Assembly: GCF_900114255.1 (NCBI RefSeq)
Contig: NZ_FOSL01000012.1
Span: forward strand, 62,001-126,000
Origin: Neomesorhizobium albiziae
Lineage (GTDB): Bacteria; Pseudomonadota; Alphaproteobacteria; Rhizobiales; Rhizobiaceae
DNA: 64,000 nucleotides
Reading direction: 5' to 3'
This document shows, one piece after another, positions 15,582 through 19,648 of the stretch. How positions within the stretch are numbered: the first letter of the stretch is position 1; each line of letters begins with the position of its first letter. The position numbers and the translations under genes are program-made. The notes beneath the pieces were generated by a model, which made no database searches, was not told where the DNA came from, and saw nothing but the letters and a program-made list of their open reading frames with translations.

Positions 15582-16049
15582 GTGACTGTCGCAATAGCGA
15601 TCGAAAGCCCCTTGCAGGACGATGTGCGCACGATGGTGGCTGCGCTGAACGCGCATATGATCCCGTTGACGCCGCGAGAGTTCCAGTTCCAGCTCACGGT
15701 CGAACAGATGGCCGAGCCTGCGGTGACCCTGTTTGTGGCGCGCGGTCCCGACGGGCGTCCCGTCGGCATGGGCGCACTTAAAGACCACGGCGACGGGATT
15801 GGCGAGGTCAAGCGCATGTTCACCTTGCCCGAGGTGCGCGGCCAGCGTGTCGGATCCCAGTTGTTGCAGTCGATCGAGGCGCTTGCACGCGACAAGGGCG
15901 TCACGAGGCTGGTCCTCGAAACGGGCGAGGCTGCGGGCTTCGAGCCGGCCTACCGCGTCTATGAACGCGGCGGGTTCGAGGTCTGCGGCGCCGTGCTCGA
16001 CTATCCCGATTCCGGTTATTCCCGCTTTTATGAAAAGAAACTCGCCTGA
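15582..16049 (+). CDS. GNAT family N-acetyltransferase
   Basis: A 155-residue GNAT protein starting at GTG three bases after gatC and overlapping gatA by one base. The acetyl-CoA-binding region [18 protein letters not shown] and the following LVLETGE and [14 protein letters not shown] segments are clear. The substrate is unknown. A GNAT gene between gatC and gatA is a recurring rhizobial arrangement and suggests co-expression with tRNA amidation rather than a proven functional link. Confidence 0.9.
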
Positions 16050-17614
16050 TGACCGACCTCACCAATCTGACGATTTCGGAAGCGCGCACCAAGCTGCGTG
16101 CAAAAGAGATTACCGCGGCTGAACTCACCGATGCCTATCTCTGCGCGATCGACAGCGCCAACGGGTCGCTGAACGCCTATGTCGCGGTGACGCATGACCA
16201 AGCCCGCGCCATGGCAAAGGCTTCCGACGAGCGTCTTGCCAACAATTCCGGCGGCGCACTGGAAGGCATTCCGCTCGGTATCAAGGACCTCTTCGGGACC
16301 GAAGGCGTGCACACCCAGGCCTGCAGCCATGTGCTCGACGGCTTCAAGCCGCGTTACGAATCGACGGTCACCGCCAATCTGTGGGCCGACGGCGCGGTGA
16401 TGCTTGGCAAGCTCAACATGGATGAGTTCGCCATGGGCTCGTCCAACGAGACATCCTACTACGGCCCGGTCATCAATCCGTGGCGGCGCTCGCGCGCGAC
16501 CACCATCGTGCGGCCCGTCACCCATACGGGCGATGCGGCCTTCGTCTCCGATGGCGGCGTTCGCACCGAACGCACGCTGGACAATATGCAACTCGTGCCC
16601 GGCGGTTCTTCCGGCGGCTCGGCGGCGGCGGTTTCGGCTTTCCTGTGCGCCGGCGCCACGGCGACCGATACCGGCGGGTCGATTCGCCAGCCGGCGGCTT
16701 TCACCGGCACGGTCGGCATCAAGCCGACCTACGGCCGCTGCTCGCGCTGGGGCATTGTTGCGTTCGCCTCGTCGCTCGACCAGGCCGGACCGATCACCCG
16801 CGACGTGCGCGACAGCGCCATCATGTTGAAGTCGATGGCTTCGGTCGATGCAAAAGACACCACCTCGGTCGACCGTCCGGTGCCGGATTACGAAGCCGCC
16901 TTGGGACAGTCGATCCGTGGCATGAAGGTCGGCATCCCCAGGGAATATCGTGTCGACGGCATGCCGGACGATATCGAGGCGCTGTGGCAGAAAGGCATTG
17001 CCTGGCTGAAGGATGCCGGCGCTGAAATCGTCGACATCTCGCTGCCGCATACGAAATACGCGTTGCCGGCCTACTACATCGTGGCGCCGGCGGAAGCCTC
17101 GTCCAACCTCGCCCGCTACGATGGCGTCCGCTACGGCCTGCGCGTGCCCGGCAAGGACATCATCGACATGTATGAAAAGACCCGCGCCGCCGGATTCGGC
17201 CGCGAGGTCAAGCGCCGTATCATGATCGGCACGTACGTGCTCTCCGCCGGCTACTACGACGCCTACTATCTGCAGGCGCAGAAGGTGCGCACCCTGATCA
17301 AGCGCGACTTCGAGCAGGTATTCGCCGCCGGCGTCGATACCATCCTGACGCCGGCGACCCCCTCGGCCGCCTTCGGCGTCGCCGACGAGGACATGGCCGC
17401 GGATCCCGTCAAAATGTACCTCAACGACATTTTCACGGTGACGGTGAACATGGCCGGCCTGCCGGGCATCGCCGTGCCGGCCGGGCTCGACGAAAAGGGT
17501 CTGCCGCTCGGCTTGCAGCTCATCGGCCGTCCCTTCGACGAGGAGACCCTGTACCGCGCCGGCCATGTGATCGAACAGGCTGCCGGCCGCTTCGCGCCGC
17601 AGAAGTGGTGGTAG
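16049..17614 (+). CDS. gatA: Asp-tRNA(Asn)/Glu-tRNA(Gln) amidotransferase subunit A
   Basis: A 521-residue amidase-signature enzyme that generates ammonia from glutamine for GatB. The catalytic lysine is in [14 protein letters not shown] and the serine pair in [16 protein letters not shown]. Compared with typical GatA, an extra stretch of about 28-30 residues (from [15 protein letters not shown] to RTERTLDN) lies between INPWRR and LVPGGSSGG. Both flanking motifs are intact and the frame is unbroken, so it is an insertion in the protein rather than an error. The socA-like gene begins seven bases after the stop. Confidence 0.96.
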
Positions 17615-17621
17615 AACTGTT

Positions 17622-18131
17622 GTGCCCTACGATGCGCGCGAGATTGCGAATTTCTTTGTAGACCGAGCAGGTGAGACCGGCTTGCCGCTCACTCACTTAA
17701 GCCTTCAGAAGATTCTTTTTTTTGCGCATGCGTGGCACTTAGCAAAATATAACGCCCCATTAATTGGTCAACGCTTTGAAGCTTGGAAGCATGGTCCGGT
17801 TGTTCGGGTGGTTTATGATCAATTGAAGGTTTATAAGGATAAAGAAATATCCAGTAGATTAACGAAGATTGATGTAACAACTGGCATTATGTCTTTTGCA
17901 AGATATGATTTAAACTCAAATTTGATGAAGTTTTTAGAAAATATATTCGACTATTACGCAAAGTTTGATGCTGGAAAGCTCGTTGACCTGACTCACGAAG
18001 AGGCCGGGCCGTGGGAAAAGGTGTGGAAAAGTGGCTTGGATGGCGCGGTTGTAGGCATGTACATCCCCGATGAATCAATTAGGTTATGGATTCTACGCGA
18101 GGGAGGACGCGGAAGCTTAATACGCCATTGA
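17622..18131 (+). CDS. Panacea-domain (DUF4065) antitoxin, SocA-like
   Basis: A 169-residue protein whose N-terminal domain carries the DUF4065/Panacea pattern: YDAREIANFFVDRA, LQKILFFAHAWHLA, FEAWKHGPVVRVVYDQL. Panacea domains are interchangeable antitoxin modules; in Caulobacter SocA the domain neutralises SocB and delivers it to ClpXP. The GTG start lies seven bases after gatA with no good ribosome-binding site, suggesting coupling to gatA. The base composition of this and the next gene is clearly more AT-rich than the surroundings, with codons such as ATA, TTA and AGA, indicating horizontal acquisition. SocA identity is inferred; DUF4065 membership is strong. Confidence 0.82.
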   Translation: MPYDAREIANFFVDRAGETGLPLTHLSLQKILFFAHAWHLAKYNAPLIGQRFEAWKHGPVVRVVYDQLKVYKDKEISSRLTKIDVTTGIMSFARYDLNSNLMKFLENIFDYYAKFDAGKLVDLTHEEAGPWEKVWKSGLDGAVVGMYIPDESIRLWILREGGRGSLIRH

Positions 18132-18145
18132 GCGGAGGAGTTTGA

Positions 18146-18841
18146 ATGCGGCATGCCCCCTCGGTACCGGAAATAGTTCGCGTAGATACGTCATCTCTCA
18201 ACAGTGCAGTCGCGCATCTAATTTCGGCTTTAGAGCCGACAGGTGGCAATTTTAACTACCTGGATGGAACCAAGAGAGTTCGTAGTGCTCACAAAGGTCT
18301 ACATGATCTGAAAGCATTGATGTCGGCCTCGCCGTCTCGTGCAAAGATGGTTGGGCATGCTCACAATATGGATGTTGTCAGGCTTGCTGCTCCCAATGCA
18401 TTCGGCCGAAAAACCTCTGTTTTCAATCTGCCTCCGCGTAAGCTTCCTTATGGTGGGGATAGGCTCGCCTCTTACAGACTTCCGTTCTTCTTTGTAGAGG
18501 AGGGGTCTGTGAAAGGTTATTTTCTACAACCCAGGAAGAATACTCATTTTACGACAGAGCAATATGGACTTATGGCAACTGTTGTAAAACGAAATTTGCT
18601 CGATACAGAGTTCTACGGCGAGCGTGTAGAATTTGAGGTGGTCGACGTATCACGAAAGGTAAACGACAACGAGCGTAGCTTGTCTGTTTATACACTGTCG
18701 GAGCTTCAACTTTGGTCTGAAGCCGATGTTGCTCAACATTTTCGTGTTGTTGCGGCTGCGCTGAATATAATAGAAGATGAGCAGCTTGTTAAGAAAGTAA
18801 GGAGGCCGCTACGTGACAAGGAACTGCCTCTCTTCGACTAA
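18146..18841 (+). CDS. Putative toxin partner of the Panacea antitoxin, SocB-like candidate
   Basis: A 231-residue protein with no family I can name with certainty. It starts at ATG behind a strong GCGGAGGAG ribosome-binding site, 14 bases after the antitoxin gene. It has no signal peptide or membrane segment. The extreme C-terminus reads ELPLFD, close to the QL(S/D)LF-type peptide with which polymerases and regulators bind the beta sliding clamp DnaN. Caulobacter SocB, the partner of a DUF4065 antitoxin, blocks replication by binding DnaN, so a SocB-like toxin is the best guess. The gene shares the AT-rich composition of its partner and stops nine bases before the DUF218 gene. Confidence 0.6.
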   Translation: MRHAPSVPEIVRVDTSSLNSAVAHLISALEPTGGNFNYLDGTKRVRSAHKGLHDLKALMSASPSRAKMVGHAHNMDVVRLAAPNAFGRKTSVFNLPPRKLPYGGDRLASYRLPFFFVEEGSVKGYFLQPRKNTHFTTEQYGLMATVVKRNLLDTEFYGERVEFEVVDVSRKVNDNERSLSVYTLSELQLWSEADVAQHFRVVAAALNIIEDEQLVKKVRRPLRDKELPLFD

Positions 18842-18850
18842 ATTTCATTC

Positions 18851-19648
18851 ATGTTTTTCTACCTCTCGAAAATTTTCTGGTTTTTCGCCCAGCCGCTGAA
18901 TTTTTCGATTTTCCTGGTCATCGCGAGTTTGCTGGCGGTCTTTTTCGGCCGCCGGCGTCTCGCGCTGACAAGCCTGTCGGCGGCGTTCCTTATCCTCGCC
19001 CTCTCGGCATGGACGTCGCTTGCCCCGCTCCTGATGCATCCGCTCGAAGACCGATTTCCGCGCCCTGCGAGCCTTCCGGAAAAGGTTGACGGCATCGTCG
19101 TGCTTGGCGGCGGCTTCGAGGGAGCCGTCAACCTTGCCCGCGGCGGCTACGAACTGAACGGTTCCGGCGATCGCTTTGTCGAGACAGCCGTGCTGGCGCG
19201 GCGTTTCCCCGATGCGAAAATTCTGATCTCGGGAGGAACCGGCTCGATGCTGCTGGAGGGTGAGGAGGATGCAAACACCGCGTTCCGCTTGCTTGTAGCA
19301 CTCGGTGTGGCGCCGGAGCGGCTGATCCTCGAAAGCAAGTCCCGCAACACCGCCGAGAATGCACAGTTCTCGAAGGAACTCGTCAATCCGCAAGCCGGCG
19401 AAACGTGGCTGCTGGTCACCTCGGCCTTCCACATGCCGCGCTCGGTCGGGCTGTTCCGCAAGGTGGATTTCCCGGTAATTCCGTGGCCGACAGACTATCG
19501 CACCACAGGCAGGGAGGGCGTCGCCCTGTTCACCGACAACCAAACCGACGCCCTGCAGAACACCACATTGGCGATCCGCGAATGGATGGGCCTTGTAGCC
19601 TATTGGTTGTCGGGCCGCATCGATACGCCGCTGCCGGGACCGGTTTGA
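18851..19648 (+). CDS. YdcF/ElyC family protein (DUF218)
   Basis: A 265-residue membrane-anchored protein. Two hydrophobic segments at the N-terminus (about residues 5-30 and 38-58) precede the DUF218 domain, with DGIVVLGGGFEGAV, ILISGGTGS, ILESKSRNTAENAQFS and LVTSAFHMPRS. ElyC of E. coli, of the same architecture, affects the lipid carrier pool for peptidoglycan synthesis. The 3' end overlaps the convergent DUF599 gene by 49 bases. Confidence 0.88.
   Translation: MFFYLSKIFWFFAQPLNFSIFLVIASLLAVFFGRRRLALTSLSAAFLILALSAWTSLAPLLMHPLEDRFPRPASLPEKVDGIVVLGGGFEGAVNLARGGYELNGSGDRFVETAVLARRFPDAKILISGGTGSMLLEGEEDANTAFRLLVALGVAPERLILESKSRNTAENAQFSKELVNPQAGETWLLVTSAFHMPRSVGLFRKVDFPVIPWPTDYRTTGREGVALFTDNQTDALQNTTLAIREWMGLVAYWLSGRIDTPLPGPV

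Follow-up and report, generated by a model that had tools for sequence, protein, structure and literature searches.

A divergent SocAB-like gene pair behind gatA in Neomesorhizobium albiziae, with a probable link to sliding-clamp-blocking toxins

Introduction

Two adjacent AT-rich genes lying in an otherwise GC-rich rhizobial gene neighbourhood raise the question of whether they encode a toxin that arrests replication by occupying the sliding clamp DnaN, together with its antitoxin, or an unrelated pair that happens to share a few features with such a system. The reference for this mechanism is the SocAB module of Caulobacter crescentus (type VI; NCBIfam NF047745/NF047746). According to excerpts of the published accounts, a clamp-binding motif lets SocB dock in the hydrophobic cleft of DnaN (PMC9690074, PMC5812544), resistance mutations against SocB fall in this cleft (PMC5694481), and SocA hands SocB to the ClpXP protease (PMC5812544, PMC5422525). 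At the C-terminus, the clamp consensus QL(S/D)LF is said to tolerate more variability (PMC9690074). A survey of Panacea (DUF4065) antitoxins placed SocB in its cluster T10, and the PanAT systems tested there neutralise their toxins by direct binding, Lon and ClpXP being described as not needed in the accessible part of that source (PMC8832971).

Remote SocB relatives whose clamp-type tails vary would indicate a mode of attack on the clamp that reaches beyond one species. They would also supply natural variants of a clamp-blocking peptide, the clamp cleft being an antibacterial target, and would allow asking when ClpXP-dependent neutralisation arose.

Results

An AT-rich gene pair between gatA and a DUF218 gene

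The analysed window, a 64,000-nucleotide stretch of the Neomesorhizobium albiziae genome, carries the following features around the pair:

16049–17614, forward strand: upstream flank, presumed gatA (Glu-tRNA(Gln) amidotransferase subunit A; Pfam Amidase, 472 bits)
17622–18131, forward strand: socA-like Panacea (DUF4065) antitoxin gene, 169 aa, GTG start
18134–18139, forward strand: GGAGGA read from the letters, putative Shine-Dalgarno-like site 6 bases 5' of the toxin-gene ATG
18146–18841, forward strand: SocB-like candidate toxin gene, 231 aa, ATG start, ending in KELPLFD
18821–18838, forward strand: C-terminal ELPLFD (residues 226–231), putative clamp-binding-type tail with similar ends in relatives
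18851–19648, forward strand: downstream flank, DUF218 gene (Pfam DUF218)

All four genes lie on the forward strand, separated by 7, 14 and 9 bases respectively, and the reading frames, their coordinates and the two outer gaps (gatA stop at 17614, DUF218 start at 18851) agree with a preliminary description of the locus. The AT-richness it reported for the pair also holds, with GC contents of 0.441 (socA-like gene) and 0.474 (toxin gene) against 0.648 in gatA, 0.613 in the DUF218 gene and 0.617 in the window, and third-position GC of 0.45 and 0.433 against 0.833 and 0.755 in the two flanks. The socA-like gene is the sole Panacea gene detected in the 6.27-Mb genome (92 contigs), and the toxin protein has no second match elsewhere in it.

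Since the socA-like gene begins so near the end of gatA, read-through from upstream is likely, and the pair would be read from the gatA transcript. Around the pair there are five promoter-like sites (1.2 in shuffled sequence), of which four lie on the reverse strand and the fifth, on the forward strand, falls within socA. Terminator-like sites were at chance level, and Rfam gave no match between 15000 and 21000.

The candidate toxin is a remote relative of SocB

The absence of a recognised family for the 231-residue protein, noted in the preliminary description, was borne out for Pfam, PHROGs and PADLOC (no family at E 1) and very nearly so for NCBIfam, in which SocB_toxin (NF047746) was the sole match at E 1, at E 0.03 and 13.3 bits for an equivalog cut-off of 210, with a collinear alignment of residues 98–202 to model positions 104–207. 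A search with the antitoxin located a counterpart in Neorhizobium sp. SOG26 (L064), where gatA is followed after 1 base by a SocA gene and then by a 231-aa protein 49% identical to the window toxin. SocB_toxin was again its sole NCBIfam match at E 1 (E 3.7e-4, 19.6 bits, below the cut-off of 210), with residues 85–201 aligned to model positions 89–206.

For profile comparison, the reference SocBs were five convincing NF047746 matches (E 2.6e-7 or better) from 385 genomes of the class, matches at E 0.1 or better having been found in 27 genomes, of which the other 22 were discarded as chance. Here and with the canonical-type SocBs below, the comparisons are with homologues and not with the Caulobacter SocB sequence itself. 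Aligned with hhalign, the window and SOG26 proteins matched the five homologues at E 8.6e-8 (probability 94%) over residues 101–230, as compared with 0.031 for the best of 200 column shuffles and 0.22 for the reversed profile. By contrast, all 20 other DUF4065 partners tested gave E 0.1 or worse; these are proteins of 87–165 aa devoid of SocB similarity. The signal persisted against nine canonical-type SocBs (E 2e-6) and after removal of the tails (E 4.8e-6; best of 150 shuffles 0.01). Its significance rests on the SOG26 orthologue and on profiles built from few sequences. Protein length (231 aa against 232–257 aa in the four full-length NF047746 matches) and gene order, antitoxin then toxin, are concordant.

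The two halves of the protein differ in how they relate to SocB. The N-terminal 100 residues gave no alignment with canonical SocB (E 0.14). They did align with the L035/L070 type, at E 1.3e-4 where 100 shuffles reached 0.012 at best, and weakly with L036/L074 (E 0.006). These intermediates are themselves linked to SocB with variable strength. NCBIfam SocB_toxin matched L070 at E 1e-6 and L065 at E 1.1e-13, while L035, L036 and L074, here counted as SocB-like, had no NCBIfam match at E 1; against canonical SocBs, hhalign gave E 1e-7 for L036, 4.7e-5 for L035 and L070 together, 0.003 for L074 alone and 0.015 for L035 alone. Judged from sequence profiles, the C-terminal half can thus be securely described as SocB-like, the N-terminal half appears to be joined to SocB through intermediates only, and homology to SocB in this wide sense is well supported.

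The opposite reading, in which the toxin of this Panacea pair has no kinship with SocB, the likeness being due to chance and the LF ending a coincidence, could draw on the weak single-sequence SocB_toxin match, on the absence of a Pfam family and on BLASTP searches against single SocBs that were mostly insignificant (best 3e-4, with L007). It would also fit the frequent exchange of toxins by Panacea antitoxins at large reported in excerpts of the survey (PMC8832971). The SocB_toxin score of the SOG26 orthologue, the profile tests with their shuffles, the clustering of the antitoxins and the recurrence of the tail (both below) all point the other way, making this reading very improbable. The SocAB-like interpretation originally advanced, which proposed a profile search against SocB as its check, is therefore upheld, and the other option it had left, a new type of Panacea partner, is set aside because the toxin protein is a divergent SocB by profile comparison.

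In the sample studied, antitoxins largely stay with their toxin type

The 169-aa protein is a clear Panacea member (Pfam SocA_Panacea, 82.4 bits, above the cut-off of 25.7) and carries the GPV motif of these antitoxins within EAWKHGPV (EAWKHGPVVRVVY in the sequence), a motif reported as important in them (PMC8832971); Panacea domain, GPV motif and two-gene order are thus shared with the PanAT systems. It matched NCBIfam SocA_antitoxin (NF047745) with 151.1 bits, below the equivalog cut-off of 190, over model positions 1–152 of 176, leaving the final 24 positions unaligned, and is 60% identical to the gene at the corresponding place in SOG26. Inspection by eye indicated that both proteins lack the C-terminal extension of canonical-type SocAs, which is EPSEDTPFA-like in L004, L005, L069, L071 and L105 and looser in L006 and L072. 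With this extension missing, the ClpXP route might be missing as well. The window genes are also 14 bases apart, whereas the canonical-type pairs of L004–L007, L069, L071, L072 and L105 overlap, if their longest ORFs are right.

A class-wide search gave 30 SocA loci, among which seven have a SocB-like partner (the window's own and six others, four of these at the places of L004, L005, L006 and L008) and 20 another tested partner; no downstream ORF was chosen in L048, L054 and L059. We computed a maximum-likelihood tree of 36 SocA-like proteins, 16 with a SocB-like partner and 20 with another, omitting L048, L050, L054 and L059, adding the phage locus L066 with its partner judged by eye, and without a SocA for L073, whose locus ends 21 bases before that gene's start. 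On this tree, the window SocA groups with other SocB-paired antitoxins, and the label "SocB-paired" needs two changes, against a mean of 12.0 for shuffled labels and none as low in 500 shuffles. The tree is rooted at midpoint and leaves 14 of its 33 inner branches open; its starred branches also force two changes, so that a single clade is not shown. In this sample the antitoxins largely stay with their toxin type, unlike the common exchange of partners reported for Panacea as a whole (PMC8832971).

Elsewhere among these loci, L008 (G776:C67) holds an apparently broken SocAB, its SocA frame ending early and running into a SocB without a start; it was used as found. In the alphaproteobacterial loci L038, L039, L042–L045, L047, L049, L051, L057 and L060–L062, the Panacea gene is followed by a short protein (107–165 aa) that looks membrane-like by eye.

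Clamp-type tails recur among SocB-like proteins

A single LF ending proves little, so the evidence on the tail lies in its recurrence in relatives. We compared 16 SocB-like proteins, collected from the 30 class SocA loci, the five NF047746 matches, SOG26, Rhizobium CB3171 and six profile-search loci, with 287 background ORFs (longest non-overlapping ORFs of at least 150 aa in the window and the loci, SocB-like ones removed, some of which may not be genes). The C-termini read as follows:

Window: ELPLFD; SOG26: DLPMFF
L004: GPLL; L005: NPFNF; L006: GRGLF; L007: DDLFS
L008: PDLFDPKK; L035: EPGLF; L036: QLSLI; L065: DEPEPT
L069: GGLFS; L070: EPDLFA; L071: GPLI; L072: NPMGF
L073: GPLI; L074: RDLFDD

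Under a strict pattern, [LM]F within the last four residues, 8/16 SocB-like proteins were positive, the window's included, against 0/287 background ORFs (0/46 within the window), and even in the final six residues [LM]F occurred in only 2/287. A looser hydrophobic pattern retrieved 14/16 SocB-like proteins against 14/287 background ORFs (5/46 in the window). The Fisher p-values (8e-12 strict, 9e-15 loose) are indicative only, because the loose pattern was devised after the tails had been seen and the sequences are related. The recurrence held for the nine proteins found through the NCBI model or SocA (4 strict, 7 loose) and for the six found with our in-house profile, which included the tails (3 strict, 6 loose). 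The NF047746 model does not select for tails, since its alignment stops before the final residues: in L071 it reaches residue 242 of 251, and in L105 residue 244 of 249. L008 fails the pattern with an LF six residues from its end, and L105, outside the 16, ends in GPLI.

The originally proposed likeness of ELPLFD to QL(S/D)LF peptides is a partial one: ELPLF and its SOG26 equivalent DLPMF match the consensus apart from the first residue, where E or D replaces Q. The tail does not stand out by conservation between these two proteins, its 12/18 identities ranking only 186th of 214 segments. Canonical SocBs (L004, L069, L071, L072 and L073) additionally contain, away from the tail, a V/I-E/D/S-L-F/Y-S/T stretch that is easily taken for a clamp motif and could be an alternative or second docking site. 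Its counterpart in the window protein is QLWS, close to where a strand meets a helix in the low-confidence models, and the stretch is absent in the other types; we favour a structural role for it because of this position and this absence.

These data bear directly on a second alternative, in which the protein is a SocB homologue without clamp action, aimed at another target, its LF ending being structural or serving antitoxin binding (for instance as the segment gripped by SocA). The clear SocB relative L065 has no LF tail, ending in DEPEPT, the acidic residue takes the place of the consensus Q, and the window protein shares only 10–19% identity with the seven SocB-like proteins in the alignment other than SOG26, all of which leave room for a change of function. 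Yet the endings vary (LF, MF, LI, LL, FNF, MGF), often after G/T/P-rich stretches, and thereby look like a short docking motif, and the QLSLI of L036 comes near the clamp consensus itself. On balance, absence of clamp action is rather unlikely, and we keep to a probable clamp-blocking toxin docking through its tail, a role suggested by homology and by the tails together.

Structure models

AlphaFold2 models of the 231-aa protein, built from two and three sequences, had low confidence (pLDDT 45 and 48, with 149 and 144 of 231 residues below 50). The tail is unstructured in both, and its low pLDDT says little because the models are low-confidence throughout. A Foldseek search of the PDB with the second model returned no match at E 0.001, and by sequence no PDB entry did better than E 0.05. 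An enzymatic toxin, such as a PD-(D/E)xK nuclease bearing an accessory tail, might be suspected from the top Foldseek rows, which are HincII chains. None of the matches reaches significance (best E 0.057 with a TM of about 0.2, from a model of pLDDT 48) and, by eye, the SocB-like alignment contains no conserved acid followed by an ExK pattern, and we therefore give this idea hardly any credit.

A rare module at a variable site

Among 394 genomes of the family, the 231-aa protein found a convincing match in its own genome only, two others at E about 0.008 being judged chance. No relative was found in phages or plasmids, and scans of the genome and viral contigs for conserved peptides, using the protein or the two-row alignment, retrieved none; the SOG26 orthologue itself was missed by the scans because they seek short conserved peptides. 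Plasmids likewise gave no match to the SOG26 SocB, the L070 type or the L036 type, nor did plasmids or phages to the canonical SocB of L069. In the viral scans, SocA, the L035/L070 type and the L036/L008 type found nothing, and the canonical SocB alignment retrieved one contig, L105 (IMGVR_UViG_3300037604_000088). This 45-kb sequence, classified as viral, bears a canonical-type SocAB pair and may be a case of prophage carriage.

Profile searches identified four matching genomes among 329 of the phylum and five among 327 of the family, the own genome being counted in both. SocA matched 9 plasmid and 47 phage records; in the two of these 56 that were examined, the partner is SocB-like in Rhizobium CB3171 and a 161-aa protein, membrane-like by eye, in a Paracoccus phage. 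The proposed extension of the mechanism to rhizobia calls for some narrowing, SocB-like genes occurring also in 4/326 other family genomes and in Rhizobium sp. CB3171.

Neorhizobium is the nearest named relative of the locus. Whether through common descent or a separate arrival, the SOG26 copy shares the setting of the window pair on its upstream side, with a GatA 80.6% identical to the window GatA and a comparable dip in GC (0.498 and 0.511 in the pair against 0.626 in gatA); no DUF218 match was found in the 4.5 kb downstream. A search of 40 genomes gave 30 gatA loci in which to survey the site, one from the window and 29 from relatives. DUF218 lies 18 bases 3' of gatA in G018 (L092) and, with other DNA between, 801 and 1312 bases 3' of it in G008 and G007; the remaining 26 relatives have no DUF218 in the 1,497 bases after gatA (548 in one). 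As the junction behind gatA is variable, the pair is plausibly an insertion, and the DUF218 gene directly after gatA in G018 means that it may sit in an interruption. The window GatA also contains a 36-residue segment that is much shorter in most relatives: of the 18 in which it can be read, 16, among them SOG26, have 8 residues there, and the remaining two have 12 (L076) and 29 (L079).

AT-rich, foreign composition and rarity within the family might be expected of a decaying or silent remnant without present function. However, both genes have uninterrupted reading frames and plausible start sites, and 49% (toxin) and 60% (SocA) identity have been retained in SOG26 at the same place, leaving a remnant scarcely likely.

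Discussion

Taken together, these observations make a divergent SocAB toxin-antitoxin module the probable identity of the two genes. The 231-aa protein would be toxic when free, probably by blocking DnaN, and the Panacea protein would bind and disarm it, whether by masking it directly (type II) or through delivery to ClpXP (type VI, Caulobacter-like). Horizontal transfer probably brought the module to its place behind gatA. As in Caulobacter SocAB, the Panacea gene precedes a toxin gene coding for about 230 aa, and both products show a remote homology to their Caulobacter-type counterparts; the window pair differs in lying far under both curated cut-offs, in its missing SocA extension and in a tail with E/D instead of Q.

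More tentatively, alphaproteobacterial clamp blockers may form a broader superfamily that has gone largely unrecognised and of which SocB is only the most familiar branch, an idea that we hold possible without yet counting it as probable. Such a superfamily would comprise at least four types (canonical; window/SOG26; L035/L070; L036/L074) that resemble one another little in sequence. The C-terminal docking tail would be their most constant feature, and the Panacea antitoxins would stay with them. Its rhizobial branch, devoid of the SocA extension, would neutralise by direct binding rather than by ClpXP delivery.

The clamp pocket is reported as a target in another lineage, suppressors of the RipA toxin of Streptococcus pneumoniae falling in the same pocket as those of SocB, with no homology reported for the two toxins or for the two antitoxins (PMC12795458). 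The terms "Panacea" and "DUF4065" do not appear in the text of PMC12795458, nor do SocA, SocB, DnaN and "sliding clamp" in that of PMC10440598. In the genome studied here, the predicted target is present as a dnaN gene between dnaA-like and recF-like genes (by eye). A second, divergent DnaN homologue (L107, G000:C10:182217-183314; 157 bits, where the main copy scores 311) adjoins an SSB-like gene by eye, perhaps on a mobile element, and could serve as a spare or resistant clamp.
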